This document shows positions 3,932 to 42,421 of a stretch of 62,646 bases of DNA, piece by piece. The DNA comes from Lampropedia puyangensis. GTDB taxonomy: Bacteria; Pseudomonadota; Gammaproteobacteria; Burkholderiales; Burkholderiaceae_C. A program made the translations under genes and the position numbers. How positions within the stretch are numbered: the stretch's first letter is position 1; each line of letters opens with the position of its first letter. The notes under the pieces are model-generated. The model was not told the DNA's origin. It made no database searches and saw nothing but the letters and a program-made list of their open reading frames with translations. The stretch spans positions 1 to 62,646 of the forward strand of contig NZ_STFG01000018.1 in assembly GCF_004833285.1 (NCBI RefSeq). The letters are read 5' to 3'.

Positions 3932-4393
3932 ATGAATACTCCGAACGCTGTAGCAACACAACAACTGGCGCAAGTACGTCGGTGGCTTGTGCGTGGCTGG
4001 CGTTGGCGTGTTTCGATCTTGTTGCTGCTGGCCATATTTTTGCGCGCCTTGGTGCCGCAGGGCTATATGCCCGCAGCCTCCTCGGACCAAGATGTTTTCT
4101 TTGCGATGGTTGTTTGTACCCCTGACGGCCCTTTAGACGTTAGTGGAAAGCATTCCACCTCCCCCACTAGCACACCGCACTCGACGCCAGATGCGTCTGA
4201 GTCAGCGCATGCCAAAACCGTTTGCAGTTTTTCAGCCATGGCCTGGCAAATACTGCTCGATGGTTTATGGCTGGCCTTATTGTTTGTGCTGCTCTTACTG
4301 GCGATTCGGATCCTGCCCCCGCGCTATTGCGCGCCCATATGGGCACCGCGCACAGACATTCGCGCCGCCAGAGCGCCCCCATTCACTGTTTGA
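3932..4393 (+). CDS. DUF2946-type membrane protein, second copy
   Basis: A 153-residue protein with two membrane segments: WRVSILLLLAIFLRALVPQGYMP (about 27-50) and ILLDGLWLALLFVLLLLAIRIL (about 107-129). The PQGYMP sequence after the first helix, one cysteine before the second helix and the RAARAPPF tail are typical of DUF2946, although the DCPNCL motif of the first copy is missing. The loop between the helices is rich in Ser, Thr and Pro. It precedes the TonB-dependent receptor gene and is probably co-transcribed with it. DUF2946 proteins have no settled function; association with copper and siderophore receptors suggests metal homeostasis. Confidence 0.65.
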   Translation: MNTPNAVATQQLAQVRRWLVRGWRWRVSILLLLAIFLRALVPQGYMPAASSDQDVFFAMVVCTPDGPLDVSGKHSTSPTSTPHSTPDASESAHAKTVCSFSAMAWQILLDGLWLALLFVLLLLAIRILPPRYCAPIWAPRTDIRAARAPPFTV

Positions 4394-4558
4394 TCCTCAC
4401 GTCGTTTGACGCATTCGCTGCAAGTGCCTGATTGAATTACTGGCTGTGACGACTCGTTGAAAGACACAACGTATGCCGCCTCGCCTTGCCTCAGAGCAAG
4501 ACGTGGCGTGTGTATTTGCGCATGGCTTTTGCATGCGCGATCAACAGATGAATGCCTG

Positions 4559-6700
4559 ATGCAACACCCTCCATTTTTGATGGCTGCCCTTGCCGTCGCC
4601 AGTCTCAGCCTCGCCTTGCCAACGTGGGCCGACACGAATAACGCTACTGCTGATCATCAGCAAAACAACAAAACCTTGCCTGAGGTCACAGTGTCACTGC
4701 AAGACCTCCCGCAGCTCGCACAATTGCCATCGACCGGCTCTAACTTGGATCTGACGTCGCTTGAAACGGCAGCCAGTGTGCAAACCATTAGCCAGCAACA
4801 ATTGCGCGAGCGTGGCGATACATCCGTTGTCAATGCAGTCACAAGAGCTGCAGGGATCAGCAGCATGGGCCATCCTGGCAATATTGGTTCTGCCTTATCA
4901 GCGCGCGGTTTTACGGATTCGACCTCGGTGATGCAGCTCTACGATGGCACGCGCCAATATGGCGGTGCCGGTTTGAGCTTTCCTTTTGATACCTGGTCAA
5001 TTGCCCAGATTGAAGTGTTGCTGGGGCCCTCGGCGGTGATTTATGGCGATGGAGCCATTGGCGGCGTGATCAACGTCATTCCTAAAAAGCCCAGCAAAGG
5101 CAAGCCCGAGCATGAAATGCAGCTCACAGCGGGCAACCACGGCAAGCGAGCTGTTGCGTTTGGCAGCGGGGGCGCTATCAGCGAACAGCTCTCCTACCGC
5201 ATTGATGTCAGTGGTGAGCGCAGTGATGGCTGGGTTGAGCGAGGTGACACACGTGGCTTAGGCTTCAATGGTGCATTGCGCTGGGATCTCACGCCCCAGC
5301 TGAATGTGCAACTAAGCCATGCGTATGCCCGTCAAAAGCCACAAGCTTATTTCGGCACGCCGCTGGTCGATGGTCGCCCCATCAAGGATTTGCGACACAA
5401 CAACTACAACGTCAAAGATGCGTCGATTGTTTACCGCGACCATTGGACCGAATTGGCCGCGCAATGGGCAGCGACTGAGGATGTCACGGTGCGTGGCAAG
5501 CTCTACCGCATCAGCAGTGCTCGCCATTGGCGCAATTCTGAGGGGCTGGTCTACAACAATGCAAGCGGCATGGTCGATCGTGCGGACAATACCGAGATCG
5601 GCCACAACCAGGCACAAACCGGCGTGCATGTAGATACGGTGTGGCGCAATCGAGTCGCTGAGATGGCCAACCAAACATCGTTTGGCTTTGATTTCAATGA
5701 TTCCAAGTTCACGCACACCAACAACACTTATGTAGGCAGCTCTGGGCCAGTGGATTTGTACAACCCAGTGTCGGGCTTGTACCAAAGCGACGTTCCATTC
5801 ATTCCGCGCTATCGCAATAAGGCCAAGCAATACGCCTTGTTTGCTGAAAACCGCCTTGAGCTTACGGACCGCTGGTCTGTGATAGGTGGTCTGCGTTACG
5901 ACTACACCAAGCTCTCACGCTTTGATTTGGTGGCTAATAACCAGGCATTTGAGCGCAACTACAACAACACCAGCTGGCGTATTGGCAGCGTCTACAAACT
6001 GCAGCCCAATTTGTCGCTCTATGCCCAGTACTCCACCGCAGTGGATCCAGTTGCCAGCATGCTGCTGCTGTCACCCGCTAACAGTAGTTTTGATATGTCG
6101 ACTGGCAAGCAAATGGAGGTCGGCATCAAGCAAGTCTTCTGGGACAACAAGGCTGAGTGGACCTTGGCGGCGTATTCCATCAAGAAGAACAATTTGCTCT
6201 CGCGTGATCCGGCTGATCCCAGCTTGCGAGTGCAAGTGGGTGAGCGTACCTCTAAGGGGGTAGAGGCGACCTTGTCTTTGGCCCCAACGCCCAAGTGGCA
6301 GTTGGATTTGAATATGGCCATACTGCGTGCGCGATACACAGATTTCAATGAGTCTTCTGGTGGCGTGAGCGTTTCGCGCAATGGCAATGTGCCAACCGAT
6401 GTACCTGAGCGCCTGGCCAATGCATGGGCCAGCTACAAGGTCTTGCCCGATTGGACGCTCTCTGGAGGTGTGCGCTACGTGGGCAAGCGCTATGCCAACA
6501 ACGCCAACACGCTGACGTTGCCCGGCTACACGACGGCCGACTTGGCTGTGCAGTGGCAAGCAAGCCCTACAACCACGTTGACGCTGCGTGGCATCAACGT
6601 CACCAATAAGTACTACTTCACCACCACGTACTACACCAATACCCAGTGGTTAGTCGGAGAAGGACGCCGTTTTGAGCTGACGCTGAACCACCGCTTTTAA
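4559..6700 (+). CDS. TonB-dependent siderophore-type outer-membrane receptor
   Basis: A 713-residue outer-membrane active-transport channel. I start at the ATG at 4559, where a signal peptide begins (MQHPPFLMAALAVASLSLALPTWAD); an upstream ATG at 4457 gives a 34-residue non-signal extension. The plug domain covers roughly residues 60-190: SVQTISQQQLRERGD, ALSARGF, and LLGPSAVIYGDGAIGGVINVIPKKP, which is the classic plug ending. The rest is a 22-strand barrel ending in a terminal aromatic (LTLNHRF). The VIPKKP ending and overall form fit the FhuA/FpvA siderophore branch rather than BtuB. The PepSY gene follows after 12 bases, a usual pairing for siderophore uptake and cytoplasmic-membrane iron release. 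The ligand cannot be deduced. Confidence 0.85.
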   Translation: MQHPPFLMAALAVASLSLALPTWADTNNATADHQQNNKTLPEVTVSLQDLPQLAQLPSTGSNLDLTSLETAASVQTISQQQLRERGDTSVVNAVTRAAGISSMGHPGNIGSALSARGFTDSTSVMQLYDGTRQYGGAGLSFPFDTWSIAQIEVLLGPSAVIYGDGAIGGVINVIPKKPSKGKPEHEMQLTAGNHGKRAVAFGSGGAISEQLSYRIDVSGERSDGWVERGDTRGLGFNGALRWDLTPQLNVQLSHAYARQKPQAYFGTPLVDGRPIKDLRHNNYNVKDASIVYRDHWTELAAQWAATEDVTVRGKLYRISSARHWRNSEGLVYNNASGMVDRADNTEIGHNQAQTGVHVDTVWRNRVAEMANQTSFGFDFNDSKFTHTNNTYVGSSGPVDLYNPVSGLYQSDVPFIPRYRNKAKQYALFAENRLELTDRWSVIGGLRYDYTKLSRFDLVANNQAFERNYNNTSWRIGSVYKLQPNLSLYAQYSTAVDPVASMLLLSPANSSFDMSTGKQMEVGIKQVFWDNKAEWTLAAYSIKKNNLLSRDPADPSLRVQVGERTSKGVEATLSLAPTPKWQLDLNMAILRARYTDFNESSGGVSVSRNGNVPTDVPERLANAWASYKVLPDWTLSGGVRYVGKRYANNANTLTLPGYTTADLAVQWQASPTTTLTLRGINVTNKYYFTTTYYTNTQWLVGEGRRFELTLNHRF

Positions 6701-6712
6701 AGCCAAGCCGCT

Positions 6713-8326
6713 ATGTTTGCGACGCTTTTCAGTAAACGCTTTGTTTACTTGTTGCACCGCTGGAGCGGCATTGCCGCTTGTATCTTGATGGTGCTGTGGC
6801 TGGTCAGTGGCGTGGTGATGCTGTTTGTCGGTCACCCCAAGCTGCTGCCGGCTGAGCGGCTGGCCGCATTGCCAACTTTGCCGCAACAGGGCTGCTGTAT
6901 TGATGTGCAGCAGGCCTTGGCACAGGTTGCCCACCCCGAACAGGTGGCCAGCATCGCGCTGACTACGGTGGCCAACCAAGTGGTCTACCGTTTGCAGCGT
7001 AGCGATGGCCGTTTGGAGCTTGTTGATGCCATGAATGCACAAACGCTGCCAGCGGCCAATGCCGATACGGCGCTGGCCAGTGCCCAAGCTTTTTTGCCAC
7101 AGGCAAAGGCGCAAATGCTGGGTTTGGTCGACGATGACCGCTGGACTCACTCGCCGCGCTTGGATGCGCATCGGCCTTTGTTCAAGGTCCAAATGCAGGA
7201 TCCAGCCACAACTTGGCTGTATGTGTCCTCACGGAGCGGCGAAGTGGTGTTGGACGCGCCTCGTGATGAGCGCTATTGGAGCATGCTGGGTGCGTGGCTG
7301 CATTGGCTCTACATGTTCCGCAACGGCTCTAAAGATGCATTCTGGAGTTGGCTCGTGATTGGCCTGTCGGCCCTATGCACGCTCAGTGCGATTGCGGGTG
7401 CATTTGTCGGTGTCTGGCGTTGGCGCTTTTCAGGCCGCTACAAATCCGGCTCGCGCAGTCCTTATCGCAGTTTGGCGATGCGCTGGCACCACATCACGGG
7501 CTTGCTGTTTGGACTGATTTTGCTGGCTTGGATTTTCAGCGGCTTGATGTCGATGAACCCTTTTGGTGTTTTCAATGCCCAAGGCCCAGCGCCAGACCGC
7601 AAAGCCTACCAACCCGATGCGGGCCATGTGCAACTGGCCACCGCGCCTGCTGACATCCTTGGCCGACTGCTCAGCCAAGGATTCGCGGCCAAAGAGCTGC
7701 ACTGGTTGGTGCTGGATCAACAGCCTTATGTACTGGCCTTTGATGGCCAAGCGCGCACCAAGCTAATTGTTGCCAGCGCAGATGGCACAGGCTTTTCGGT
7801 ACAAGACCAATGGCTGCCCAGCGATTTACAAGCTGCTGGTGCCAAGTTGTTGGCCGCGCCCATCGTGAAGGCCGAAGTCTTGGAGCGCTATGACGCGTAT
7901 TACTACCAGCGCCAGGCAGCCTCTATGTACGCCGGTGATTTACGCGGTCTGCCTGCGCTACGACTGGACTTTGGCGATGCGAATGCGAGCTCGGTCTACC
8001 TCGATCTGCACAGCGGTCAGCTCGCGCTGAGCGTCAACCGAGCACAGCGCCTCTCACGCTGGTTGTTCAACTTCTTGCACAGCTGGGATTTGCCGCTGTT
8101 TTTGCAATGGAGTTATCTGCGTGAAGCAGCGCTGATTGCGCTCAGCATCGGTGCACTGTTCATTGCCGTAACAGGGCTGGTGATCGCTTGGAAATACCTG
8201 CGTGCCAGCCTGATGAAACGGCGCACTCTGCGCACCAAAGCAAGCCCGTCGCCAGCGCAAAAACACAACAAGGCATCTGCTATATCCACCGCGACTGGTG
8301 AGTCAGCTCGCACCGCGAGCCGCTAG
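6713..8326 (+). CDS. PepSY-domain membrane protein, putative siderophore reductase partner
   Basis: A 537-residue inner-membrane protein of the PepSY_TM family. It has an N-terminal membrane helix (about 17-40, GIAACILMVLWLVSGVVMLFVG), a periplasmic domain with LDAHRPLFKVQMQDP and TWLYVSSRSGEVV (PepSY repeat), a helix pair near 205-240 with WLHWLYMFR, another helix at about 258-285 (MRWHHITGLLFGLILLAWIFSGLMSMNPF), a second PepSY-like region and a last helix near 478-500. Histidines inside or at the ends of the helices (RWHHITG, WLHWLY, FLHSWDL) could bind heme. Family members such as FoxB and related proteins help release iron from siderophores. It is translationally close to the receptor gene (12-base gap). 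Confidence 0.8.
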   Translation: MFATLFSKRFVYLLHRWSGIAACILMVLWLVSGVVMLFVGHPKLLPAERLAALPTLPQQGCCIDVQQALAQVAHPEQVASIALTTVANQVVYRLQRSDGRLELVDAMNAQTLPAANADTALASAQAFLPQAKAQMLGLVDDDRWTHSPRLDAHRPLFKVQMQDPATTWLYVSSRSGEVVLDAPRDERYWSMLGAWLHWLYMFRNGSKDAFWSWLVIGLSALCTLSAIAGAFVGVWRWRFSGRYKSGSRSPYRSLAMRWHHITGLLFGLILLAWIFSGLMSMNPFGVFNAQGPAPDRKAYQPDAGHVQLATAPADILGRLLSQGFAAKELHWLVLDQQPYVLAFDGQARTKLIVASADGTGFSVQDQWLPSDLQAAGAKLLAAPIVKAEVLERYDAYYYQRQAASMYAGDLRGLPALRLDFGDANASSVYLDLHSGQLALSVNRAQRLSRWLFNFLHSWDLPLFLQWSYLREAALIALSIGALFIAVTGLVIAWKYLRASLMKRRTLRTKASPSPAQKHNKASAISTATGESARTASR

Positions 8327-9950: not shown

Positions 9951-10256
9951 TCATTCTGGGATGTAAACCATCCTGCCATCATCAAGCCGATAGGTAATGC
10001 CAGCCTTCACACCCTGGCCCTCACCGATTTCGCCACTCGATTCGTAGCGTGTCAGTTCTTCGCCCTTCTTGATGGTCATGCGCATGTCGGCTTGACCTGG
10101 ATTCTCTACCACGACAACATCGTTAGATGAGAAAGGGTTCAGCGGATTTTTAGCCACCACAATCATCAAGATCCCGATAACCACCAGAAACAAATCAATC
10201 AAGTTGACGACCGAAAGAATAGGATCGTCAGCCTCATCAGATTCGATGAATCGCAT
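9951..10256 (-). CDS. DUF2149 (HmuU/ExbD-like position) membrane protein
   Basis: A 101-residue protein with one N-terminal membrane helix (VVNLIDLFLVVIGILMIVVAKNPLNPF, about 15-41) after an acidic start, then a small soluble domain ending in YRLDDGRMVYIPE. This is the DUF2149 family. Its topology is like ExbD/TolR, one helix and a periplasmic domain, and an Asp (NLIDLF) sits at the start of the helix. It begins two bases after the stop of the ExbB-like gene with GGGGAGAT as ribosome site. It is the last gene of the receptor-CobN-ExbB operon, in the position of hmuU in Bacteroidetes heme loci. A role as the ExbD-like partner of the channel is inference. Confidence 0.8.
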   Translation of the reverse strand: MRFIESDEADDPILSVVNLIDLFLVVIGILMIVVAKNPLNPFSSNDVVVVENPGQADMRMTIKKGEELTRYESSGEIGEGQGVKAGITYRLDDGRMVYIPE

Positions 10257-10258
10257 GT

Positions 10259-10750
10259 TTATCTCCCCGAATGAATTGGCAACATGCCATTACGCTCCAG
10301 CTCACGCAGTTCCTGCAGAAGCCAGCGGCGGCGCACAGTCAAAATAAAGAAGGTGATACTGGAGGCAACCAACGCCAGAATGACGGCAGAGAATGCAGCA
10401 ACCAGATTCTCACCCACGCTGGTCGAATCACCGCTGCCCAGAGCCAGCAAAGCCGGCCCCATGGGAATCATGGTGGCAATCAAACCGAGCATAGGCGTGG
10501 TGCGGGAGACGATTCGCAGCCACTCAAGGCGACGAATGATCCATAGTTCCAAGTCATCAGCAGCACTGCCAGTTTGGCTCTGATATGCCGCCAGCACGGA
10601 TTGGTAACGCCGTCTTCTTCGTTGCCAAGCCTCCATCGCAAAACCGCCCAGTACGGCAAAGGCATACAACAGGCTCAACAGGATTAATAGCAGCACAGGT
10701 GCAAGAAAAAGGCCTGAGAGTTCATACAAACTGGATTCAAGAATGTTCAT
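10259..10750 (-). CDS. MotA/TolQ/ExbB-type proton channel (HmuT-like)
   Basis: A 163-residue protein with the fold of ExbB/TolQ: helix 1 at about 13-36 (LFLAPVLLLILLSLLYAFAVLGGF), a basic cytoplasmic loop (EAWQRRRRRYQ), helix 2 near 88-107 (TTPMLGLIATMIPMGPALLAL) and helix 3 near 117-140 (LVAAFSAVILALVASSITFFIL). The TPMLGLIATMIPMG and N-x-VAAFSAVILALVAS segments are the conserved core of the family. It is shorter than canonical ExbB (about 240) and matches the short form next to DUF2149 and CobN-like genes. It would use the proton gradient, with the DUF2149 protein, to drive the CobN-like protein or the receptor. The ATG at 10750 is used. Confidence 0.85.
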   Translation of the reverse strand: MNILESSLYELSGLFLAPVLLLILLSLLYAFAVLGGFAMEAWQRRRRRYQSVLAAYQSQTGSAADDLELWIIRRLEWLRIVSRTTPMLGLIATMIPMGPALLALGSGDSTSVGENLVAAFSAVILALVASSITFFILTVRRRWLLQELRELERNGMLPIHSGR

Positions 10751-10787
10751 AACCAAGAATTGTTTTTAGAGGGGAGTCAAAAAATCA

Positions 10788-13700
10788 TCAGCGGATGGTC
10801 TGTGTTCTGCCCAACGCAACAGCCTGCCTTGACTGCTGTGTTGCACCTGCAGCGGCGGCCAGCAACAATGCGGCCAGTGAAAGCCAGAAGACCCAACGCG
10901 GCGGAGGTTCTGCGGGCTGAACCTGTTCCATGACCTGCCCCTGCACTGCCACAGCCTGCGATTGAACTGTTGCTTGTGATTCGGTTTCTTGAGAGCTGGC
11001 GGGTTCAGAGGCATCAGGTGATGCAGCACTGCCTTGTGCACCGGCCCCCGCATTCATACCAAAACCGGCCAGCACTTTCTGCGCGGCCTGCCAGGTGGGT
11101 GAACTGGTTTGCACATCCACATCGTGCTGGTCAACCAGTTGCTGCCAACGCTGCGCCAGCTCGTGCTGAGTCTGTTCCGAAGCCTGCCAATAACCTTTGC
11201 GCACGGCTTCCATCATGCGTTCAATAAGCTGTGCCTGCGCAGTCGGGTTGTGCTTCTCAAACCATTCGTTGATTCCCAGCTCACGCTGGTCATTGACGTA
11301 GGTTTCGTGCAATGCCTGCCACTGATCGTCACGCACGATTCCTGGGTCGGTGACCTGCCAGCCCCAAAGGTTGTTAATCACTTTGAGCACGTTGACTGTG
11401 CCCGCATACCCTTCTTGCTGCATGGCACCAATCCATTGTGGGTTGTCATAACGCGTGCGCAGTTCATCGGCAAGAAAGCGCGCCGCGCTGGTCATGCGGC
11501 CAGTGCGTGGATCACGCAGGTCGGCAATATAAAGTTCTGGACTTTCGCCATCGAGGTGACGAACGGCCATGGACATACCGCCCAGGAACTGGAAAGGATC
11601 GTCGCCACTCAGCAAACCGTACGTGTTGGATGAGCGCGCCAGCACGGCGGCCTGTACCCCTTTGAGTTGCTCAGCGTAAAGGTTGACTCCAGGATGTTCA
11701 TCGCCCACGGCGATGGCCCAATCGCTGTTATTACTGCTAGCACTGTTGCCTTCGCGCTGGACTTTCTTGCCGGGCGCAGCATAAGCGTATTGCAGACGAC
11801 TCAAATATTGTTGTGCCAGTGGGGCATCATCTTCCCAACTGGTAGAGTCCAGCGTCGCATCAGCCAGACCGACACCGTAATCGCCGGGTTTGTTACCAAA
11901 AATGCGTGCACGCGCCAGAGTTGCAGCACGCTCGGCTGCAAGCCCTTGCGCAAGCAGGTTTTTCTCTGTGGTCAGGCTATTGATGGCCACGGCATTATCG
12001 GCTTCAGGAAGTTGCGCTATATTGTCAATGGCCTGCGCCAGCAAGCGCATGAAGCCGTCGAACTGATCGCGGTAGGCTCCCGTAACCTGAACCACGGCAT
12101 CAATACGGCCACGCCCAAGCTCCTCACGTGAGATGATCTCCAGTGCCCTTACGCGACCACCTTCGTCCCATACCGGGCGCAGGCCCAGCGCCAGCAGAAT
12201 CTGGCTTTCCACCATGCCGAGATGTCGCATGGCTTCCACCGACCACAGGCTGAAGGCCAGTTTGGTGGGAGCCTGCCCGTCATGATTGTTACGGTAATCA
12301 TCGATCAATGACTGCAATTGTTCGGCCGCTGCGTCATAGGCTGCACGGGTCGGCAATTTGTCTGGCTCAAAAGCATAGAGATTGCGCCCACTGGGCACTC
12401 CAGGGTTGCGCACCGGATCACCGCCAGGGCCGGGAGGCACATAGCGGCCAGACAATCCCAGAAGCAGGCTTTCGATTTCCTGCGTGTCTTGCAAGCCATG
12501 ATCGAGTTCACGCGCACGCTCCAGCATCTGGCGCAACGGTGCATTCTGGATACCCTTCAAATCCGTTTTTTCACGCAGATATTGGTGCAGCAAGCGGTAT
12601 GGCGCACTCTTGGCAAGTTCTTCATAACTGCCTGCAAATGGCTCTGAGCCGTGATCATGCTCTTGGTGGGCTTGGTGTGGGTGCTGGCCATGGTGCTGCT
12701 GTGTTGCTGACTGGCGATCCCATTCATCTGCCAATCGTTGCAATGGTTCACCCAATTGTTGCATCACGGTCAACAGCCGGTGTTCATCGCTGGCTGGCTG
12801 CCCGAATGTGTGCAGTCCCAGTGGAATATTTTGATTCGCCAGTTGGTGCAAGTGGTCATGCAAAGCATTGAAGAAGCCATCAAAATCGGCATCAATGCAT
12901 GCAGTATCCCATTCCAGATCCTTATCCATGCGCGAGGCCATCACGGCATCTTGAATCTGTTGACGAGTGCGTTCACGCACTGCTCCTTCTTCGAGTTGCT
13001 GGTACTCATGAATCAGTGCGTGCAAATCCACCAGTTCATCGTACAGAGCCGAAGGGGCAAACGGTGGAGTCTGATGACTGACAATCGTGGCACGCCCACG
13101 ACGCTTGGCCTGCACGGCCTCGCCTAGGTTATCCTGAATGTAAGGATAAATTACCGGAATATCGCCCACCGCCAGAAATGGATAGTCATCAGCCCCCACG
13201 CCACGATCCTTGCCGGGCAGCCACTCCTGTGAGCCATGTGTGCCAAAGTGAATCAGTGCATGCACCTTCTGCTTCTCACGCAGATACAGGTAATTGGCCA
13301 GATAGTAATGGTTGGGCGGCACCGCGGCATCATGGTAGTCCTTGCCATCCACATCACTGCGCGGCATTTGTGGCAGCACCGTCAGATTGCCCCATTGAAT
13401 GCGCGGGATGATGAAGTGTTTTTCTCCACTAATCTCACGAATCGCCCAATGGCTGGCAGGGTCACCCCATCGCGCATCCAGAGCCTGCTGTCGGCGCTCA
13501 GGCAAGGCTTGCAACCACTGCAAATATTGTTTCAAAGGCAGCGTATCCGCCAAGCCTTGTTCCAGCAGGCCGTCCAAGGCGGCATGGTCATAAAGTGGCC
13601 TCATTACTGCTTGAGCCTGTGTGATGATGCTTGCCTCTTCTTGTCCGGGTACTTGATAACCCGCCTTTGCCAATTCTGGGAGCAAACGCTCAATGCTGCG

Positions 13701-14939
13701 TGTGACGTTGAGATTGGAGGCAGAGATATTCCTGTCGCCATTGGGGTAGTTCCAGAACATCAATGCCAGACGTTTATCGGCGGCAGGTGTCGTTTGCAAG
13801 GTTGCCAAGTTCTTGGCCTTGTGCAATAAAGCATCCAGTTGTTCTGGGATGGCTGCTGGCTCGCCCTGCTCCAAGGCACTGAGAACCAGCGGATCCGTCA
13901 TGCCCCAGATTTCATAGACCGCCATGAATGGCGCAACCATCCGGCTCGGTGTGCCGCTTTCAGCTTCGCGCCAACTCTGCGTGTTGCCATCACGGTAGTT
14001 CAGGGTGGTCAGCACCGGAATGCCCAGTTGCTCAATCTCGGGCACTCGCTGCTCGGCATTGCCCATGTGCTGCATGTTGATGAGCACCTGAATGCCCTTG
14101 TCCTTCAACATGTGCGTCAAAGCCTGAGGCTTGTCACCATCAAACCAGAATGCCACCGGCAGCATGCCGAGCGCTTCGCTGCGGCGGATGGCGGCATCAA
14201 TCACGCCGGTCTGCATATTCGCCAGACTGGTAGCGTGAATGGCAAAGGCAATCCGCGGACTTCCCTGCTGCCAACGTGGTGCCGCAACATGCGGAGTGCC
14301 GGTACCCCAGGCGAGATAATCTTCAAAACTTGTAAATGCCGAACGGGCATCCGGGTGGTAATAAGCATCTGCGGGCAACAGAATGGGTGCGGGAACGTCA
14401 GCAACGCTCTGCCCTGCCAGCCACAAACGCAAATACGCAAAGAAATGGCGGTAATTCGCTTCGCCGCCGTTCTCATAATAGGCTGCGAGTGCATTTGCAT
14501 GCGGGGCAGGCAAACCACTGTGCGCAGTACTGCGCAGGCTTGCCTCCAGCCAGCGCACAGTGGGTCTTTGCAAAATGGGCCCTAGCTGCGTGCGCAGGCG
14601 CTCTCGCCCTCCGCGCAGGCTGGATTCCAGAATCAGCAAATCTGCCTGGCTTACCCAAGCCTCACGTGCGGCAGGCGTATCGCCTGGAATATCCTGGCTG
14701 TACACGCTCTCCAGTTGCACACCTGCCAGCCGTGCGTAGGTACGAAGTTTGTCCAGCTTACCAGGCAAGATGGATTCATCGGCCACCACTCGCACCAGTG
14801 GCATGTGACTGGTGGCTTCATCATCCGTATTTGCATGCGAGGGTTGAATCATTGCCAATTGCAGCAGAGCAAACGCAGCCCATAAGCACAGGTGCCATTG
14901 CCAATTACAGGCACCACGCATTGAGTGAACACGAGACAT
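10788..14939 (-). CDS. Periplasmic, membrane-anchored CobN-like chelatase subunit (HmuS-like)
   Basis: A 1383-residue member of the CobN/magnesium-chelatase-H family. Unlike cytoplasmic CobN it carries an N-terminal signal peptide (LWAAFALLQLAMIQPSHAN) and a C-terminal membrane helix (PPRWVFWLSLAALLLAAAAG, about 1342-1362) with a basic tail, so the body should lie in the periplasm anchored to the inner membrane. Family motifs are clear: LIHFGTHGSQEWLPGKDRG, YPFLAVGDIPVIYPYIQDNLGEAVQAKRRG in its core, and GRYVPPGPGGDPVRNP. A His-rich insert (seven His in HHGQHPHQAHQEHDH, about residues 741-757) is unusual. No CobS or CobT partner is present; instead the operon has an ExbB-like channel and DUF2149. 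This is the hmuR-S-T-U layout, where HmuS has been reported to remove iron from heme. Heme dechelation or metal insertion/removal is therefore the likely role, not B12 synthesis. The start is the ATG at 14939; a GTG three bases upstream is also possible. Confidence 0.85.
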   Translation of the reverse strand: MSRVHSMRGACNWQWHLCLWAAFALLQLAMIQPSHANTDDEATSHMPLVRVVADESILPGKLDKLRTYARLAGVQLESVYSQDIPGDTPAAREAWVSQADLLILESSLRGGRERLRTQLGPILQRPTVRWLEASLRSTAHSGLPAPHANALAAYYENGGEANYRHFFAYLRLWLAGQSVADVPAPILLPADAYYHPDARSAFTSFEDYLAWGTGTPHVAAPRWQQGSPRIAFAIHATSLANMQTGVIDAAIRRSEALGMLPVAFWFDGDKPQALTHMLKDKGIQVLINMQHMGNAEQRVPEIEQLGIPVLTTLNYRDGNTQSWREAESGTPSRMVAPFMAVYEIWGMTDPLVLSALEQGEPAAIPEQLDALLHKAKNLATLQTTPAADKRLALMFWNYPNGDRNISASNLNVTRSIERLLPELAKAGYQVPGQEEASIITQAQAVMRPLYDHAALDGLLEQGLADTLPLKQYLQWLQALPERRQQALDARWGDPASHWAIREISGEKHFIIPRIQWGNLTVLPQMPRSDVDGKDYHDAAVPPNHYYLANYLYLREKQKVHALIHFGTHGSQEWLPGKDRGVGADDYPFLAVGDIPVIYPYIQDNLGEAVQAKRRGRATIVSHQTPPFAPSALYDELVDLHALIHEYQQLEEGAVRERTRQQIQDAVMASRMDKDLEWDTACIDADFDGFFNALHDHLHQLANQNIPLGLHTFGQPASDEHRLLTVMQQLGEPLQRLADEWDRQSATQQHHGQHPHQAHQEHDHGSEPFAGSYEELAKSAPYRLLHQYLREKTDLKGIQNAPLRQMLERARELDHGLQDTQEIESLLLGLSGRYVPPGPGGDPVRNPGVPSGRNLYAFEPDKLPTRAAYDAAAEQLQSLIDDYRNNHDGQAPTKLAFSLWSVEAMRHLGMVESQILLALGLRPVWDEGGRVRALEIISREELGRGRIDAVVQVTGAYRDQFDGFMRLLAQAIDNIAQLPEADNAVAINSLTTEKNLLAQGLAAERAATLARARIFGNKPGDYGVGLADATLDSTSWEDDAPLAQQYLSRLQYAYAAPGKKVQREGNSASSNNSDWAIAVGDEHPGVNLYAEQLKGVQAAVLARSSNTYGLLSGDDPFQFLGGMSMAVRHLDGESPELYIADLRDPRTGRMTSAARFLADELRTRYDNPQWIGAMQQEGYAGTVNVLKVINNLWGWQVTDPGIVRDDQWQALHETYVNDQRELGINEWFEKHNPTAQAQLIERMMEAVRKGYWQASEQTQHELAQRWQQLVDQHDVDVQTSSPTWQAAQKVLAGFGMNAGAGAQGSAASPDASEPASSQETESQATVQSQAVAVQGQVMEQVQPAEPPPRWVFWLSLAALLLAAAAGATQQSRQAVALGRTQTIR

Positions 14940-14963
14940 CACATCAAGCCTGCTTTCCCAAAG

Positions 14964-16940
14964 TTAAAAACTGGCCGTAATGCCCAGAAAAACACTTCTT
15001 CCTGGTACTGCGTAGTTAAAGCGCGTGGTTTTGTCCGTCAGCAGGGTATTGCCCAGATTTTCGACCGACGCACTCAAGGTCCAATGCTCCGAAAAGCGAT
15101 AGTTCACATCCAGCGACCAGATGCTGTGCGCAGGCAATGCATACTGAACCGAACTGCTGTACATCATCTGGCTGCCTGTGTATTGGCCACGTAGATCGAC
15201 TTGCCAAGCGGCGGCTGGTTGCCAGCCCAAGCGTACATTAGCCTGGTGACGCGGCTGAGTTGCCAGAGGCTGTCCTGTTTGCTGGTTGCGCGCCTGCAGC
15301 CACGTGTAATTGCCGGAAAGCGCTAACTGAGGCAGCAATTGCAAGGAAGTGCCCAATTCCAGCCCACGGATACGAGCCCGCTCCACATTTTGATAAACCA
15401 GCTCCCGGTAAGCATCGCAATTGCGCTCGCAGTAAGTCTGAATCAGATCACGCACATTGTTCTGGAACACGGTAGCCTGCAGGCTCCAACCCGTTGCAGC
15501 TCGGTACTCAGCCCCCAGTTCATAGCTGGTACTGATTTCCGGTTTCAGGTCAGGGTTGCCGCGCACGCTGAAACTTGAGCTCGCTACGTAGTAGTCTGGC
15601 GACAACAGCTTGAGATTGGGAGCCTTGAAGCCGCGCCCCAATCCACCCTTGATGGTGAGTGCATTACTCACCTGATGCACCAGATAAGCTCTTGGGCTGT
15701 GTTGCAGACCAAATTTCTCATGATCATCGAGACGATCACCCAGCACCAGCGACCAGTTGGGTGCAAGCGCAAATTCATCCTGCACAAAAACCGCCTTATG
15801 GGTGATGTCGGCTTTGCCCAGTTCGTTCACCGAGCTGTCTTCCAGCTTTTCCTTGCGCAGCTCACCGCCCACTGTCAGCAAGTGGCGTTCACCCAGCGCC
15901 AGACTCAGACGTGCATCGGCAACTTCCTCGTTCAACACCTGTGGCCGTGTAGGCGTACCAACGTCTCGGGTATTTGTCTTGTCCAGCGAAGCGCCGTAAA
16001 TACGCACTTGGCTGCTGGCGTTGTTCCACTTCCCCTTGTGGCTCAGCGACCATTGCTTGCGTTCAAATGCGTCATAGCTGTTGTAATAGCTTGTGCCAGA
16101 CTTTGTGCCACGCTCACGATCTTCATTAACCCGACCTACGCTCAAATCGATACGTTGGTTGGCACTGGGCGTCCAGTTCAGGGCCACATTCAGGCTTTTG
16201 GCATCACGCCCTTCAATGTCTGAAACTTTCTCATCGGTTGCCAGCGGCGCATTGTCTCGACGTCTGGTTTCTCCATACACATTCAAGCCCAATACACCTG
16301 GTAGCAAAGGACCGCCGACATAAAAACCCACCTGACGACTGTCACCACCTCGACCATCCTCACGCCATCCGGCTCTAGAAGAAAAGCTGCCGCGCCACTC
16401 ATCGGTTGCGGCACGGGTAATGACATTCACCACACCACCCAAAGCATCAGAACCATACAGAGACGACATGGGGCCACGTACCACCTCCACGCGTTCAATG
16501 GCCTCGGAGGGAACCCAGCCGAGATCGCTGTCCGAATGGCCAATTACGCCACCGGACTGATTGATGCGCTGCCCATTGACCAAGGTCAGCGTGTAATCAC
16601 TGCCCATGCCGCGAATGCTGATGCCACGCCGCGTCAGCCCAACACCCCCTACGTGCACGCCAGGCAAACCCTGTACCGCGTCTGCCAGATCCTGCACCGG
16701 CCGTTTCACCAAATCGTCGCGTTTGACGATGGCGACGGAAGCAGGCGTTTCCTCCAATGTCGTCTCGGTTGCAGTGGCGGTCACGACCAGCTCATCAAGC
16801 AGTGGTGCTGACTCTTTCTGCAAATTCTGTGCATGCGCGCACGGGCTCAGACCCAGCACTGCTCCAAAAAATAAGGCACCGCAATAACGACGCCTTGACT
16901 GCTGGCAGGCCGACTGCCTTGGTTGCGCGATCCGAATCAT
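14964..16940 (-). CDS. TonB-dependent receptor, HmuR/BtuB-like
   Basis: A 658-residue outer-membrane receptor. The N-terminal signal peptide (RRRYCGALFFGAVLGLSPCAHAQ) is followed by a TonB-box-like region (DELVVTATATETTLEETPASVAIV), a plug with RRGISIRGMGSDYTLTLVNG and VEVVRGPMSSLYGSDALGGVVNVIT, and a barrel ending in LGITASF. In the barrel, GRGFKAPNLK (about residue 433) and NPDLKPE (about 461) resemble the FRAP and NPNL boxes of heme receptors. It is the first gene of a four-gene operon and stops 24 bases before the CobN-like gene. Heme or another metallo-tetrapyrrole is the likely ligand. I use the ATG at 16940; a longer frame from 16985 would overlap the palindromic promoter elements. Confidence 0.85.
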   Translation of the reverse strand: MIRIAQPRQSACQQSRRRYCGALFFGAVLGLSPCAHAQNLQKESAPLLDELVVTATATETTLEETPASVAIVKRDDLVKRPVQDLADAVQGLPGVHVGGVGLTRRGISIRGMGSDYTLTLVNGQRINQSGGVIGHSDSDLGWVPSEAIERVEVVRGPMSSLYGSDALGGVVNVITRAATDEWRGSFSSRAGWREDGRGGDSRQVGFYVGGPLLPGVLGLNVYGETRRRDNAPLATDEKVSDIEGRDAKSLNVALNWTPSANQRIDLSVGRVNEDRERGTKSGTSYYNSYDAFERKQWSLSHKGKWNNASSQVRIYGASLDKTNTRDVGTPTRPQVLNEEVADARLSLALGERHLLTVGGELRKEKLEDSSVNELGKADITHKAVFVQDEFALAPNWSLVLGDRLDDHEKFGLQHSPRAYLVHQVSNALTIKGGLGRGFKAPNLKLLSPDYYVASSSFSVRGNPDLKPEISTSYELGAEYRAATGWSLQATVFQNNVRDLIQTYCERNCDAYRELVYQNVERARIRGLELGTSLQLLPQLALSGNYTWLQARNQQTGQPLATQPRHQANVRLGWQPAAAWQVDLRGQYTGSQMMYSSSVQYALPAHSIWSLDVNYRFSEHWTLSASVENLGNTLLTDKTTRFNYAVPGRSVFLGITASF

Positions 16941-16961
16941 TTTCAATGAACCAAACACTAT

Positions 16962-16977
16962 TGATAAAACAGTATCA
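16962..16977. promoter_or_regulatory. TGATA-N6-TATCA palindrome in the divergent promoter
   Basis: TGATA at 16962-16966 and TATCA at 16973-16977 form a perfect inverted repeat in the AT-rich space between the receptor and CobW genes. It is a candidate binding site for a metal-responsive repressor (Fur, Zur or MntR type), probably acting on the receptor operon. Confidence 0.4.
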
Positions 16978-16986
16978 TAATTCATA

Positions 16987-17004
16987 TTGAGAATTTAATA
17001 TCAA
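16987..17004. promoter_or_regulatory. Fur/Zur-like operator candidate between receptor and CobW genes
   Basis: TTGAGAATTTAATATCAA is an 18-base near-palindrome (TTGAnAnT-nn-AnTnTCAA) reminiscent of Fur boxes such as AATGAGAATnATTCTCATT. It lies 23 bases upstream of the CobW start and between the two divergent genes, so one regulator could control both. The assignment to Fur or Zur is inference. Confidence 0.4.
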
Positions 17005-17026
17005 AAATGCTCAGATGGAAAATTTC

Positions 17027-18250
17027 ATGAAAAAACCAACCCCCACCCGTTTGCCAGTCACCGTTCTGTCCGGCTTTCTTGGCGCAGGCAAAACCACACT
17101 GCTCAACCACATCCTGAATAATCGTGAAGGTCGGCGCATTGCCGTCATCGTCAATGACATGTCAGAAATCAACATTGATGCTGACCTGGTTCGACAAGGC
17201 GGAGCGGAACTCTCTCGCACCGACGAGAAACTCGTTGAAATGAGCAATGGCTGCATTTGCTGCACTCTGCGCGAAGACCTGCTTCTGGAAGTACAACGCC
17301 TGGCTCAGGAAGACCGGTTCGATCATCTCGTGATCGAATCCACCGGAATTTCCGAACCACTGCCAATTGCAGAAACCTTCACTTTCACTGACGAAAACGG
17401 CCAGACTCTGGCGGAGATCGCACGGCTCGACACCATGGTGACGGTGGTGGACAGCTTTAATTTCCTGCGCGACTACGCCTCCCGCCAGAGCCTGACCGAG
17501 CGGGGCGAGTCACTGGGAGAAGAAGATCAACGCACAGTGGTCGATCTGTTGACTGAACAAATCGAGTTCTGCGACGTTCTGATCTTGAACAAAACAGATC
17601 TCATCAACAACGAAGAACTGAACCGTTTGCGTGCCATTTTGCACAGCCTGAACCCCAGAGCACGTATTGAAATCTCGCAATTCGGCCGTGTTCCGTTAGA
17701 TCGTTTGCTTGACACCCAACTGTTCGATTTTGAAGAAGCAGCCAAAGCGCCCGGTTGGCTGCAGGAGTTACGTGGTACCCACATACCTGAAACCGAGGAG
17801 TACGGCATCAGCAGTTTTGTCTATCAGGCACGCAGGCCATTTCATCCGCAACGCTTTTATGACTGGGTGCAAAAGGAGTGGCCGGGAGTGGTTCGCTCAA
17901 AAGGTTTTTTCTGGCTCGCCAGTCACCCGAAAATCGCTGGTTCATGGTCACAAGCAGGCGCTGTTGCAAGACACACCCCTGCAGGCTACTGGTGGGCAAA
18001 TGTGCCGCGACAGCACTGGCCACAAGATCCTGATGCACTTCAACATATTCATGAAAAATGGCACAAGGATGTGGGAGATGCGCGTCAGGAAATTGTCCTG
18101 ATTGGTATAAAAATGGATGAAACTGCGTTACGCCAGCAATTCAATGCTTGTCTACTGAGCGATACAGAAATGGCTCTTGGGCCAGATAGTTGGCAGGGTT
18201 TCTCAAACCCCTTCTCAGGCTGGCGTTCAAGTTCAGAGGATCAAGTTTAA
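17027..18250 (+). CDS. CobW/COG0523 GTPase, putative metal chaperone
   Basis: A 407-residue G3E-family GTPase. The P-loop GFLGAGKTT is at residues 16-24, followed by the COG0523 metal site CICC (Cys76, Cys78, Cys79) inside [22 protein letters not shown] (switch), and NKTDL near residue 189 as the guanine-specificity motif. The C-terminal CobW_C domain ends in [16 protein letters not shown], a tail I associate with zinc-related, Zur-controlled members (ZigA/YciC type). It is divergent from the CobN-like operon and shares its control region, so it may supply or remove metal for that system or respond to the same metal starvation. Start: the ATG at 17027 has GGAAA five bases upstream; the ATG at 17015 has none. 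Confidence 0.85.
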
Positions 18251-38816: not shown

Positions 38817-38840
38817 TCACTGCGCATGATGCACACGACC

Positions 38841-40697
38841 TCAGTGCCTGCTGTCTTGTATGCCCACATCCGGCGCCATCAAATCGGCGCCGCTTGCGGC
38901 ACTCGATACGGTCGTCTGTTTTTCCGTATGGGCAGGAGTGTTAGCACCGCTGCCAATAGCTGGTGTGCTTTGGGTTTGTTCTGCTTCGTTGCGCCGGGCT
39001 TCTTCCAACGCAGCTTCAGCCACCTGCCTGTTGAGTTGGGCAGCCTCCATCCGGCGGTTAATGGCCACTTCAGCCAAGTCGAGTTCACTCACCAAACGCC
39101 TGAGCGAATCGTCATTGATCAAATGCTTGCGGCGCAGACGGTAAATTTCCTCCCGCTCCGCTTGCACACCTTTAAGGCGCAAGCCCATGTCCAACTCCAG
39201 CGTCTTGCCATGCTGCACACGCTCACGCAGTTTGACCAAATCAGGATCGCTGGTGTCATCCAATGCGTTAAGGCGCTCCCGATAGTCCTGCGCCACTCGG
39301 CCCAATACTGCTGCACGCAAGGCCTGCTCTCCAGAAGAACCTGGAGCGGCCTCCTCTGCCTGCAAAGCCACCAAGGCAGCATGGCACGCAGCAACTCGCG
39401 CATGGCGTTCCTCTCGGTCGGTAGCATGCTCTTTCACGGCGGGCATTTTGTGCAAGATCCAAGGCAGCCCCACACTACCAATCAGCAAAGTGGTGATGAT
39501 GACTCCTGCCGCCAACATGACCACCAAGTCTCTGGAAGGAAACGCCTGCCCACTGGGCAGCAGCAAAGGAATCGACAAGGCGCCAGCCAAGGTTACGGCG
39601 CCACGAATTCCCGCCACCGTCGCCAACGCGGTGAGCAAAAATGTGGGGTTGTGCCCCAAGGCCCCTTTGTGATAAACCTTGCGCAACGCCCCCTGTACAC
39701 CAATGTGCAACCAAATTGCCCGCAACAGCATCGCCACTACGGTGATGGCGACAATCAACCCGGCCAGTTGCCACCAGTTGTAGTCGCTTCGGCCCTCTGC
39801 CTCACGAATCAAGGTCGGCAGCTGAATACCCAACAACAAAAAGATGGCACCATTGAAAGCCGACTCGACCATCTCCCAGGCATCGTTGCTTTGCATGCGC
39901 TCTGTCACAAAGCGACCACGGTCCAAGTCAGTGAAATTGGTCGCAATCCCTGCTGCCACCGCAGCCAAAATGCCAGAGACGCCCAAACGCTCCCCCATGA
40001 TGTAGGCAGCAAAAGGCAGCAGCAACAGCAGCAACACCATTTGAGTCGATACGGTATCGCCAATGCGGCGTGTGACCAAGTTGCGCACATAGCCAAAAGC
40101 CCAGCCGAGCAACGCGCCAACGACCACACCGCCAATGGCAATCCAGGCAAAACTACGGCCAACTTCCATCCACGAGAAGGCGCCCGTCATGGCTGCAGCT
40201 ACAGCGAATTTCAGCGCAACCAAACCCGAAGCATCATTGAGCAAGGATTCCCCTTCCAGAATATGCATGGTTTTGGTGGGCATTCCCAAATTCCGTGTGA
40301 TGGCCGACACGGCTACGGCATCGGTCGGAGAAAGCACTGCGGCCAGTGCAAACGCCACCGGCATAGGCATGGAGGGAATCAACCAATGGATAAAGTACCC
40401 GAGCCCAATGACCGTGAAAAACACCAGCCCCAAAGCCAGTCGAAGAATGGGGCGGTGCAAGGCAAAAAATTCACGTTTGGGGATGCGCCAGCCATCGGCA
40501 AACAGCAGTGGCGGAATAAACAGCATCAAAAACAGCTCTGGATCGAAACCAATATGCAGACCCGCTTGCGGCCACGACAATGCGCAACCCAGCGCAATCT
40601 GCAACAGCGGCAATGGAATGAATTTGACGTAACGCGCCAGCAGCCCGGATGCTGCGCCAAACATCAAAACCAACAAAACAATTTCAAGGGTATGCAT
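38841..40697 (-). CDS. CPA1-type sodium/proton antiporter
   Basis: A 618-residue antiporter. The ATG at 40697 begins a membrane segment ([17 protein letters not shown]). About 12 helices fill residues 1-420; [18 protein letters not shown] and [22 protein letters not shown] are the CPA1 core, with the ND pair for ion binding. A cytoplasmic tail of about 190 residues (helical, with [18 protein letters not shown] and [26 protein letters not shown]) follows. It exports sodium or potassium in exchange for protons. It lies on the opposite strand inside the liu region, between the acyl-CoA synthetase and liuB. Confidence 0.9.
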
Positions 40698-40798
40698 GGT
40701 GCGCCAGCGCAAGCAGGCCACATGCGACCAACCCAGCGCCATTCAATTCAACAAGAGACAATCAACCAGCTCACAACCGAGCCAGCGAGGACATCAAC

Positions 40799-42421
40799 AT
40801 GGCCATTTTGAACTCAAAAATCAACGCCCGTTCCGTAGATTTTCAAAACAATGCAAGCGTAATGCGTGCCCTGGTTGATGACCTGCAACAGCAGTTCAGC
40901 ACCATTGAGCAAGGCGGCGGCGCCGCTGCACGCGACAAACATCTGGCGCGGGGAAAACTACTGCCGCGCGACCGCGTGCAAGCCTTGCTCGATCCTGGCT
41001 CTCCGTTCCTTGAAATCGCCCCTCTGGCAGCATTGAACATGTACGACAACGCCGCCCCAGGCGCTGGCGTCATCTGCGGCATTGGCCGCATCAATGGTGT
41101 GGAATGCATGGTGGTCTGTAACGATGCCACCGTCAAAGGCGGGACGTATTACCCGATGACGGTGAAAAAGCATTTGCGCGCACAAGAAATTGCCCAGCAA
41201 AATCACCTGCCTTGCGTGTACTTGGTCGACTCTGGTGGCGCCAACCTGCCCAACCAGGACGATGTTTTCCCTGATCGCGATCACTTTGGCCGCATTTTTT
41301 ACAACCAAGCCAACATGAGCGCCCAGGGGATCGCGCAAATTGCGGTAGTAATGGGCAGTTGCACCGCTGGTGGCGCCTATGTTCCTGCCATGAGTGACGA
41401 GACCATCATCGTGAAAAACCAAGGCACCATCTTTTTGGGTGGACCACCGCTGGTCAAGGCCGCTACGGGCGAAGTCGTCAGTGCAGAAGACTTGGGCGGC
41501 GGCGATGTTCACACCGGCCTCTCGGGCGTCGCAGACTATTTGGCGCAAAACGACATGCATGCGCTGGCTCTAGCGCGTGAGAAAGTCAAAAACCTGCATT
41601 GGGCTAAAACGTCCAACCCTGCCGATGCCACTCCTGAAAGCCCACGCTTTGACAGCGAAGAGCTCTATGGTTTGATCCCGCTGGATGCGGCAGGTAACCA
41701 AACACGCAAACCGTTTGATGTACGCGAAATCATTGCGCGCATAGTGGATAACAGTGACTTCGACGAATTCAAAGCGCGCTTTGGCAGCACGCTGGTCACC
41801 GGCTTTGCGCGCATTGAGGGCATGCTGGTGGGCATCATTGCCAACAACGGTATTTTGTTTTCAGAATCCGCACAAAAAGGAGCGCACTTTATTGAGTTGT
41901 GCTGCCAACGCAAAATTCCATTGGTGTTTTTACAGAACATCACTGGCTTCATGGTCGGGCGTAAATATGAAAACGAAGGTATTGCCCGCCATGGAGCCAA
42001 GCTGGTCACTGCGGTCGCCACCGCGAATGTGCCTAAATTCACCATCATCATTGGCGGCAGCTTTGGCGCTGGCAACTACGGCATGTGCGGCCGCGCTTAC
42101 TCACCACGTTTTTTGTGGATGTGGCCCAACGCGCGCATTTCTGTCATGGGCGGCGAGCAAGCTGCCAGCGTGCTGGCTACCGTCAAGCGCGACGGTATTG
42201 AGCTCAAAGGCGGCCAATGGAGTGCCGATGAAGAAGAGGCCTTTAAAGCCCCCATCCGCCAGCAATACGAAGAGCAAGGCCACCCGTATTACGCCTCTGC
42301 TCGGCTGTGGGATGATGGCATCATCGATCCTGTCGATACCCGACGGGTTTTAGCGCTGGGCTTGTCTGCAGCTCGCAATGCCCCGATTGCAGATGCGAAG
42401 TTCGGCATCTTCCGTATGTGA
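40799..42421 (+). CDS. liuB: Methylcrotonyl-CoA carboxylase, carboxyltransferase (beta) subunit
   Basis: A 540-residue biotin-dependent carboxyltransferase that carboxylates 3-methylcrotonyl-CoA to 3-methylglutaconyl-CoA in leucine degradation. The crotonase-like repeats show [56 protein letters not shown], and [22 protein letters not shown] followed by [18 protein letters not shown] is typical of MCC rather than propionyl-CoA carboxylase. The ATG at 40799 has GAGGA seven bases upstream. It heads a run of plus-strand genes up to liuD at 47235. Confidence 0.92.

Follow-up and report, generated by a model that had tools for sequence, protein, structure and literature searches.

Gene arrangement and relatives

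The sequence examined is a contig window of Lampropedia puyangensis (62,646 bases, hereafter the window; genome 3.97 Mb, 99.57% complete). Genes for a TonB-dependent receptor, a CobN-like protein, an ExbB-like protein and a DUF2149 protein form one minus-strand run at 9951–16940, and a GTPase gene is divergent from it (Table 1). All five genes are open at the coordinates listed, and each matches its named family in Pfam profiles. With ATG starts, the intergenic gaps of the run are 24, 37 and 2 bases. The coordinates and family matches confirm the layout given in the first-pass annotation, a four-gene run divergent from a COG0523 GTPase. The longest open reading frame (ORF) of the receptor opens at 16985. 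A normal-looking signal peptide follows the next ATG, at 16940, and this start is therefore the more likely one. With it, the divergent genes are 74 or 89 bases apart.

Table 1. Genes of the operon, the divergent gene and predicted operators in the window
Feature	Position	Strand	Evidence
DUF2149 protein, 101 aa	9951–10256	-	PF09919, 93.2 bits
ExbB/TolQ-like channel protein	10259–10750 (ORF open to TTG 10756)	-	PF01618, 25.9 bits (cut-off 22.9)
CobN/HmuS-like class I chelatase homologue, signal peptide and C-terminal anchor	10788–14939	-	PF02514, 1004.8 bits; NF004644
TonB-dependent receptor	14964–16940 (ORF open to 16985)	-	PF00593/PF07715; 52% identical to P. aeruginosa PA7 counterpart
Second predicted Zur-like operator, 20.0 bits	16959–16980		Family zigA box; contains TGATA-N6-TATCA at 16962–16977
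Predicted Zur-like operator, 22.9 bits, best family zigA-box site of the whole window	16985–17006		
zigA, zinc metallochaperone GTPase of COG0523, CxCC motif	17015–18250 (start 17015 or 17030)	+	NF038288; PF02492/PF07683

The divergent GTPase is ZigA, a zinc metallochaperone. It scores 696 bits against the ZigA model NF038288 (curated cut-off 600) and 154.4 bits against the CobW model (cut-off 332.1), carries the CxCC motif as CICC at residues 80–83, and is the sole gene of the genome above the NF038288 cut-off. The gene had earlier been taken for a CobW gene added beside an hmu-like set; a COG0523 GTPase is indeed present, but these scores make it ZigA and not CobW.

The gene set is not a chance association, because in 79/79 relatives the CobN gene is followed by those for ExbB and DUF2149, all on one strand. 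These loci come from a genome scan (best 80 of 87 matching stretches kept, 79 loci used) and are nearly all proteobacterial, with one binned as a cyanobacterium. L112 (split gene) is excluded from motif and tree counts and L087 (no receptor, contig end) from box counts; L132, which repeats L114, and the near-identical L085 and L086 are all counted. A receptor like that of the window is present in 72/79 loci, and L087 starts at the CobN gene. Six Rhizobiales-type loci (L044, L046, L057, L081, L096 and L107) have a different ORF of 785–880 residues in the receptor's place, grouping apart; the two of these ORFs that were scanned are TonB-dependent receptors, and CobN-ExbB-DUF2149 is unchanged. 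L096 lies on a contig binned as the cyanobacterium Kaiparowitsia, and its operon nests with Bosea, so it is probably bin contamination; the row is kept. Zinc-starvation genes occur in 19/79 loci (zigA 11, rpmE2 8, dksA2 3, rpmJ 3, ZnuD-like 2), a count made without a control set and with queries from L042, L071, L077, L158 and the window, the labels rpmE2, dksA2, rpmJ and ZnuD-like being read from protein sequences. Clustering of neighbouring ORFs gives little beyond zigA.

A quick tree of 101 proteins groups the CobN-like proteins of the window, of Lampropedia hyalina and of three Steroidobacteraceae with support 100, within an 82-member clade that also has support 100 (the zinc or Zur clade below). 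Both levels have support 100/100 in a careful tree of 46 proteins, where the larger clade (28 rows) includes the Pseudomonas aeruginosa PA7 locus L109. HmuS falls outside the Zur clade on a long branch, and its placement is unsure. Within the window's own family, 27 of 150 sampled genomes have a CobN-like match; the operon probably arrived by transfer, since no member besides the window is more than 45% identical. A plasmid search finds a relative in 6 records, with a best identity of 55%.

The chelatase homologue and the ExbB/DUF2149 pair

The CobN-like protein is 1383–1384 residues long and hydrophobic at both ends. By a simple hydropathy cut applied to 78 loci and the window, such stretches are common to relatives (N-terminal 68/79, C-terminal 71/79), in support of the first-pass description as a CobN homologue with signal peptide and anchor. 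The protein passes the NCBIfam CobN model NF004644 (1665 bits, cut-off 1248) and stays below the cut-off of TIGR02257 (536 bits, cut-off 822). Its best match by sequence in the Protein Data Bank (PDB) is HmuS (9d26, 28% identity, alignment beginning at 9d26 residue 119), which bears out the proposed homology to the Hmu machine, by which gut bacteria take iron from heme.

In HmuS the residues at work are His538 and His1209, with Glu1212 holding the second of them, and the family is marked by a methionine-rich insertion, Met79 and His254 (PMC12583661). In the window protein H569 aligns with His538, the sequence HFGTHG at 565–570 agrees with the HFG(T/A)HG mark, and H292 aligns with His254 of the head/neck heme site. 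The mark LSLDHxxEFMGG, with His1209 and Glu1212, is absent; the window sequence there is LLSGDDPFQFLGG, and its DD..FQ motif resembles Mycobacterium tuberculosis CobN. The methionine-rich insertion is also absent, the corresponding stretch of 78 residues having 9 His and 1 Met. Judged by these defining marks in its sequence, the protein is a homologue of HmuS that falls outside the HmuS family.

Every sequence of the clade keeps the His538 equivalent (82/82). The His254 equivalent occurs in 80/82 zinc-clade sequences, in 0/13 of a sister family (B2, described below) and in 0/6 other sequences. At the His1209/Glu1212 site, DH with Glu or Asp is found in 77 zinc-clade sequences, and DD..Q in the five-member clade of the window and in the sister family (13/13). 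A simple rule by which DH..E means iron and DD..Q means zinc fails on these counts. The His-rich insertion of the window protein falls within residues 743–820. That of L. hyalina is also His-rich (80 residues, 12 His), the three Steroidobacteraceae have 70–81 residues with 4 His, and most other relatives have 55–61 residues with 0–4 His. As a mark of the zinc clade the insertion is not general, being confined to the window and Lampropedia.

A second CobN gene of this genome, on contig 1, lies between genes for a CobW-type GTPase and a ChlI-like protein (identities read from the proteins) and groups with M. tuberculosis CobN (100/100 in the careful tree). Among the scanned neighbours of the window gene, no CobS/CobT or ChlI/ChlD gene is seen. 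The window protein is not the B12-type CobN, because its termini are hydrophobic and the CobW/ChlI context belongs to the second copy. Phylogeny likewise places it outside the cytoplasmic B12-type CobN, of which the genome has a separate copy; the first-pass annotation had named such a grouping as the result that would speak against it.

The model of the ExbB-like protein has a mean predicted local distance difference test score (pLDDT) of 94.9. Among PDB folds it is closest to TolQ and ExbB chains (probability mostly 0.99–1.00, E at least 0.013), and no PDB sequence match is found at E 0.01. The DUF2149 protein has one membrane helix at 12–36 and five strands in a small beta domain (mean pLDDT 79, predicted template modelling score 0.43, a moderate model), and its D21 is invariant in 76 aligned sequences. 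ExbD also has a single helix with an invariant Asp. A fold search with DUF2149 against the PDB gives no meaningful match; its profile matches the designed protein 8qag at E 8e-5.

The pair stays with the CobN gene in the six Rhizobiales-type loci, where the receptor is of another type. In L139 (8944–15695, genome G303) CobN, ExbB, DUF2149 (50 bits) and ZigA lie in one run, and no receptor is found in 20 kb, either by a search with that of the window or by Pfam, the latter applied to three neighbouring ORFs. The distant CobN of L139 has relatives in L025–L028 and L031, and a Zur-like palindrome lies upstream of the L139 zigA. Across 399 Burkholderiales genomes, a CobN homologue accompanies 28 of the 29 places above the DUF2149 cut-off: the window, five loci covered over 3.2 kb, and 22 of the 23 covered over 10–20 kb. 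Three places that score under the cut-off show no CobN within 3.2 kb. Gene neighbourhoods favour the earlier suggestion that the pair may drive the chelatase rather than the receptor.

Predicted operators and zinc supply

Upstream of the receptor gene, de novo search of 78 regions (72 of the 79 loci, five loci outside that set and the window) gives the palindromic motif ATGTTATAATATAACAT, with a likelihood gain of 540 against 18.6 in one shuffle. The motif fits the canonical Zur box, quoted as GTTA-N5-TAAC (PMC4176598). The 99% shuffle level is exceeded in 60/78 regions, with L067 only marginal. In a held-out test on longer regions of the 78 loci, a model trained on alphaproteobacteria recovers the box in 40/51 of the rest and the reverse in 26/27 (total 66/78), against 0/51 and 1/27 control segments of the same loci. 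The misses are L041, L046, L063, L066, L067, L071, L072, L077, L104, L106, L113 and L115. Among regions below the shuffle level, six Stutzerimonas loci have a strong box 313–428 bases upstream, before rpmE2, and Thauera L077 and L046 have one before zigA. Other Pseudomonas loci (L054, L074, L078, L091 and L095) also have boxes upstream of the receptor, at odds with a Pseudomonas survey in which Zur regulation of PA1922 seemed unique to P. aeruginosa (PMC10393844).

For the window, a box was trained on the regions upstream of zigA in ten family members of other genera, with the window left out. It reads tAATGAtAttGCaaTaTCATTa (gain 104.6 against 29.5–33.1 shuffled); L155 and L157 have no site and that of L152 is weak. 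The top three sites of this held-out box in all 62,646 bases are 16985–17006, 16959–16980 and the overlapping 16979–17000 (22.9, 20.0 and 17.9 bits; next 16.3), which predicts an operator of the Zur type of the organism's own family. No site exceeds 15.2 bits in 105 kb of other genome pieces, and with a uniform background the first two sites are still the best of the window. When the null is a first-order Markov model of the 105-base promoter itself, p is 0.007 for the top site and 0.0001 for a pair of sites of this quality. The family box is presumably bound by Zur. In the 24-kb locus of L. hyalina its top site (20.1 bits, next 11.2) is immediately upstream of the receptor ORF. Corticibacter populi has its second and third best sites just upstream of the receptor (19.8 and 19.5 bits), and its best site (25.4 bits, L071 1519–1540) is found 1.5 kb ahead of a ZnuD-like gene in that locus. 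A double Zur site is also known from a zinc CobW gene of Cupriavidus metallidurans (PMC11340326).

Other patterns were set aside. TGATA-N6-TATCA alone does not serve as a regulon marker: the genome has one further exact copy, and this falls within an integrase-like ORF (read from the protein), so the trained model was used instead. The canonical box, sought across the genome at 2 mismatches, gives 3 sites against 2 for a reversed control pattern. A Fur box reaches at best 6.0 bits within 16941–17030 (rank 23), where the zigA box reaches 15.6 on the same scale.

A second Burkholderiales family, the sister family B2 (L120–L123, L125, L127–L130 and L133; further out L134–L136), has CobN, ExbB and DUF2149. 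Its receptor is mostly different, and its CobN is 34–47% identical to that of the window and has no His254 equivalent. The family loci L165–L178 look similar to B2 by identity. Upstream of the receptor in nine loci (eight of B2 and L126) lies the motif AATGAgAAT.ATTcTCATT (gain 53.3 against 20.8–25.0 in three shuffles), which we take to resemble a Fur box. It exceeds 20 bits in 5/9 loci; it is missing from L120 and L128, and in L126 the zigA box gives the higher score (19.8). The motif suggests that one gene set, apparently under Zur in one clade, is perhaps under Fur in another, nine loci being a small number.

The genome has three Fur-family proteins. One, encoded on contig 23 (L147), is 54% identical to the protein divergent from zigA in family member L158 and 23–25% identical to the other two, and such a Fur-family neighbour is present in 4/10 family zigA loci. 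This protein is presumably Zur; the NCBIfam Zur model gives it 31.9 bits (cut-off 167). The single ZnuA-family binding protein of the genome adjoins mntR (216.6 bits, cut-off 153) and is itself below the cut-off of each model (EfaA 208.6, AztC 199.7, ZnuA 84.2), with manganese and zinc both as candidate metals. One ZIP-family protein is present. A typical ZnuABC is thus not found in the genome. The metal ABC transporter beside mntR, which carries the sole ZnuA-family protein found, is L146 8491–12840 on contig 1.

Two other places in the window may be recorded. Another uptake-type cluster at 3932–8326 adjoins the operon, with a small membrane protein, a TonB receptor and a PepSY-domain protein. 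Long opposite-strand ORFs overlap at 38826–40811 (+) and 38841–40742 (-), near acyl-CoA-type genes; the plus-strand ORF has no Pfam match.

Proposed function and comparison with known systems

The zinc association of this operon is already in print for P. aeruginosa (PMC4542158, PMC8531726). PA1922–PA1925 is induced 45- to 147-fold in a znuA mutant (PA1922 147-fold, PA1923 122-fold), a Zur site is predicted at PA1921/PA1922, and the authors leave the role open (PMC4542158). Zur binds the PA1922 promoter in vitro by gel shift (PMC8531726), and PA1922, PA1923 and PA1925 are more abundant in zinc-depleted cells (PMC11761036). We consider it on the whole probable that the window holds a zinc-limitation operon, the betaproteobacterial counterpart of PA1922–PA1925, with chelate demetalation in the periplasm. 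The parts of this proposal differ in strength. The link to zinc and Zur is quite likely; a chelate-demetalating role, suggested by homology, falls a little short of probable; that the ExbB/DUF2149 pair drives the chelatase is a similarly tentative idea; and a tetrapyrrole as the ligand is more doubtful than either.

Under zinc shortage Zur would come off the two predicted operators in the divergent promoter, allowing zigA and the four-gene run to be expressed. The receptor would carry a zinc chelate across the outer membrane. The anchored CobN-like protein may then strip zinc from the chelate by HmuS-type chemistry with H569 and D1115 facing the metal, as homology and the conserved residues suggest. 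The ligand would most likely be a tetrapyrrole or another large planar chelator. Cytoplasmic class I chelatases work with an AAA+ ATPase (PMC7689651); here the ExbB/DUF2149 pair may replace it as an ion-driven motor on the chelatase. The freed zinc would enter the cell by another carrier, for example a ZIP-family protein, and ZigA would pass it to client proteins.

In favour of the proposal are the identity of ZigA, the clade shared with P. aeruginosa PA7, the Zur boxes of most relatives, the zinc-starvation genes near some of them, the zigA-box sites of the window, L. hyalina and C. populi, the putative Zur protein, the His-rich insertion and the P. aeruginosa data. Several observations weigh against it. 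D1115 and Q1118 occupy the positions of HmuS His1209 and Glu1212, and because these two residues are absent, metal removal may not be the reaction of the window protein. The divergent region of the window was searched for a canonical Zur box and has none, and no member of its five-member clade has a canonical site above 12 bits (L067 is marginal at 11.5). In the three Steroidobacteraceae, 3/5 of this clade, the zigA-box site is also missing and a zinc link is not found with the markers used. AT-richness explains part of the zigA-box score, since p is only 0.007 against the promoter's own Markov null. The best Fur-like site of the window (16928–16948, 11.8 bits, next 11.1; 20–26 bits in the sister family) spans the receptor start. 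Predicted Zur boxes proved true in 4 of 11 cases in Cupriavidus (PMC6103462). L138 (5468–7362, genome G058) has the ExbB-DUF2149 pair with no CobN in 20 kb; the pair lies there near a histidine kinase gene and a pyrroloquinoline quinone dehydrogenase gene.

Could the operon instead feed iron, with the CobN-like protein as an HmuS-type heme dechelatase? HmuS is its best PDB match by sequence, the gene set is that of hmuR-S-U-V, the protein retains both His538 and the head ligand specific to HmuS, His254, and the weak Fur-like site at the receptor start would suit such a system. However, zigA is adjacent, the Fur-like score within the promoter is 6.0 against 15.6 bits for the zigA box, Asp and Gln replace His1209 and Glu1212, the methionine-rich insertion is missing and the P. 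aeruginosa kin are Zur-regulated, and we regard this reading as very unlikely. Quite unlikely, too, is a cobalt or corrinoid system, in which zinc shortage would lead to import of a cobalt chelate such as cobalamin, with its metal removed or exchanged so that cobalt stands in for zinc. The CobN-type Asp/Gln motif and the NF004644 match would agree with it, and a cobalt link is suggested by authors of P. aeruginosa papers; but the GTPase is ZigA (CobW 154 bits, cut-off 332), the genome has its own B12-type CobN operon elsewhere, regulation points to zinc, and none of the models listed (25 of 33), that of BtuB included, matches the receptor above its cut-off. Of the first-pass idea of an energised periplasmic machine acting on tetrapyrrole metal, the Hmu homology is supported; a heme or cobalamin role is not, because the GTPase is ZigA, most relatives have Zur boxes and the HmuS marks (His1209/Glu1212 and the methionine-rich insertion) are absent.

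The pair might also energise the receptor, with the CobN-like protein as a non-catalytic periplasmic binder of zinc or chelate. Pair and receptor share an operon, L138 has the pair without CobN, and an EMBO J figure legend has HmuV and HmuU powering HmuR. We think this unlikely: the receptor is swapped in six Rhizobiales-type loci and none is found in L139, but the pair stays with CobN, and a residue invariant in 82/82 sequences, the His538 equivalent, argues against a mere binder. The demetalation proposal can be stated in a more specific form, that of a zinc dechelatase. A periplasmic class I chelatase would run in reverse and take zinc from an imported zinc-tetrapyrrole or like chelate, with ExbB/DUF2149 as its ion motor instead of the cytoplasmic AAA+ ATPase. 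It would be one branch of a wider machine, with sister branches tied to Fur and iron or to heme use in Bacteroidota, and the metal would be set by regulator, receptor, active-site residues and insertion. In this full form it is speculative, and on balance we would not expect it to hold.

The chief value of the locus is as a testable bridge between two literatures, that of the Zur-regulated PA1922–PA1925 zinc operon and that of the heme dechelatase HmuS. A link between HmuS and zinc was not found in the literature; among the matches listed, with subscription journals mostly outside, no paper has HmuS and PA1923 together, and in the main text of the EMBO J HmuS paper the word zinc is absent, with Zn(II) named once in one section. 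If the machine is the same, it would give a testable answer to the role of the CobN homologue in zinc uptake and a candidate motor for a class I chelatase in a periplasm without ATP. Zur boxes on the operon extend far beyond P. aeruginosa, and the natural active-site variants (His/Glu and Asp/Gln) are usable for mechanistic work.

Compared with ExbB-ExbD and TolQ-TolR, the window pair has the same kind of partners, an ExbB-like protein of TolQ/ExbB fold and a DUF2149 protein with one helix and an invariant Asp, as ExbD has; its proteins are shorter, and DUF2149 has no PDB fold match. With biosynthetic CobN (CobNST and CobW) the CobN-like protein shares the class I chelatase family, the DD..FQ motif and the NF004644 match, but it has a signal peptide and an anchor, and the GTPase is ZigA. 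The hmu operon of Porphyromonas gingivalis has the order hmuY-R-S-T-U-V, with a hypothetical protein at T and the MotA/ExbB and DUF2149 products last (PMC10434189). Because these two are last, the window corresponds to hmuR-S-U-V. The first-pass annotation had equated it with hmuR-S-T-U and given hmuY and hmuV as absent; hmuY is indeed absent, but the other absent gene is hmuT and not hmuV. In common with the window, the Bacteroidota operon has a receptor, a CobN homologue with an anchor, MotA/ExbB and DUF2149 in this order, as well as His538 and His254. Unlike it, the window is without hmuY, hmuT, the methionine-rich insertion and LSLDHxxEFMGG, and its context is zinc and not iron.

The P. 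aeruginosa PA7 locus L109, which from its gene content and Zur box is presumably the PA1922 locus, has the same four genes in the same order as the window, 52, 50, 73 and 76% identical. The window differs from PA1922–PA1925 in its divergent zigA, in two family-type boxes instead of a canonical Zur box, in Asp/Gln for His/Glu in the active-site motif and in a longer, His-rich insertion. The two loci belong to the same supported clade, and the zinc context is common to both.

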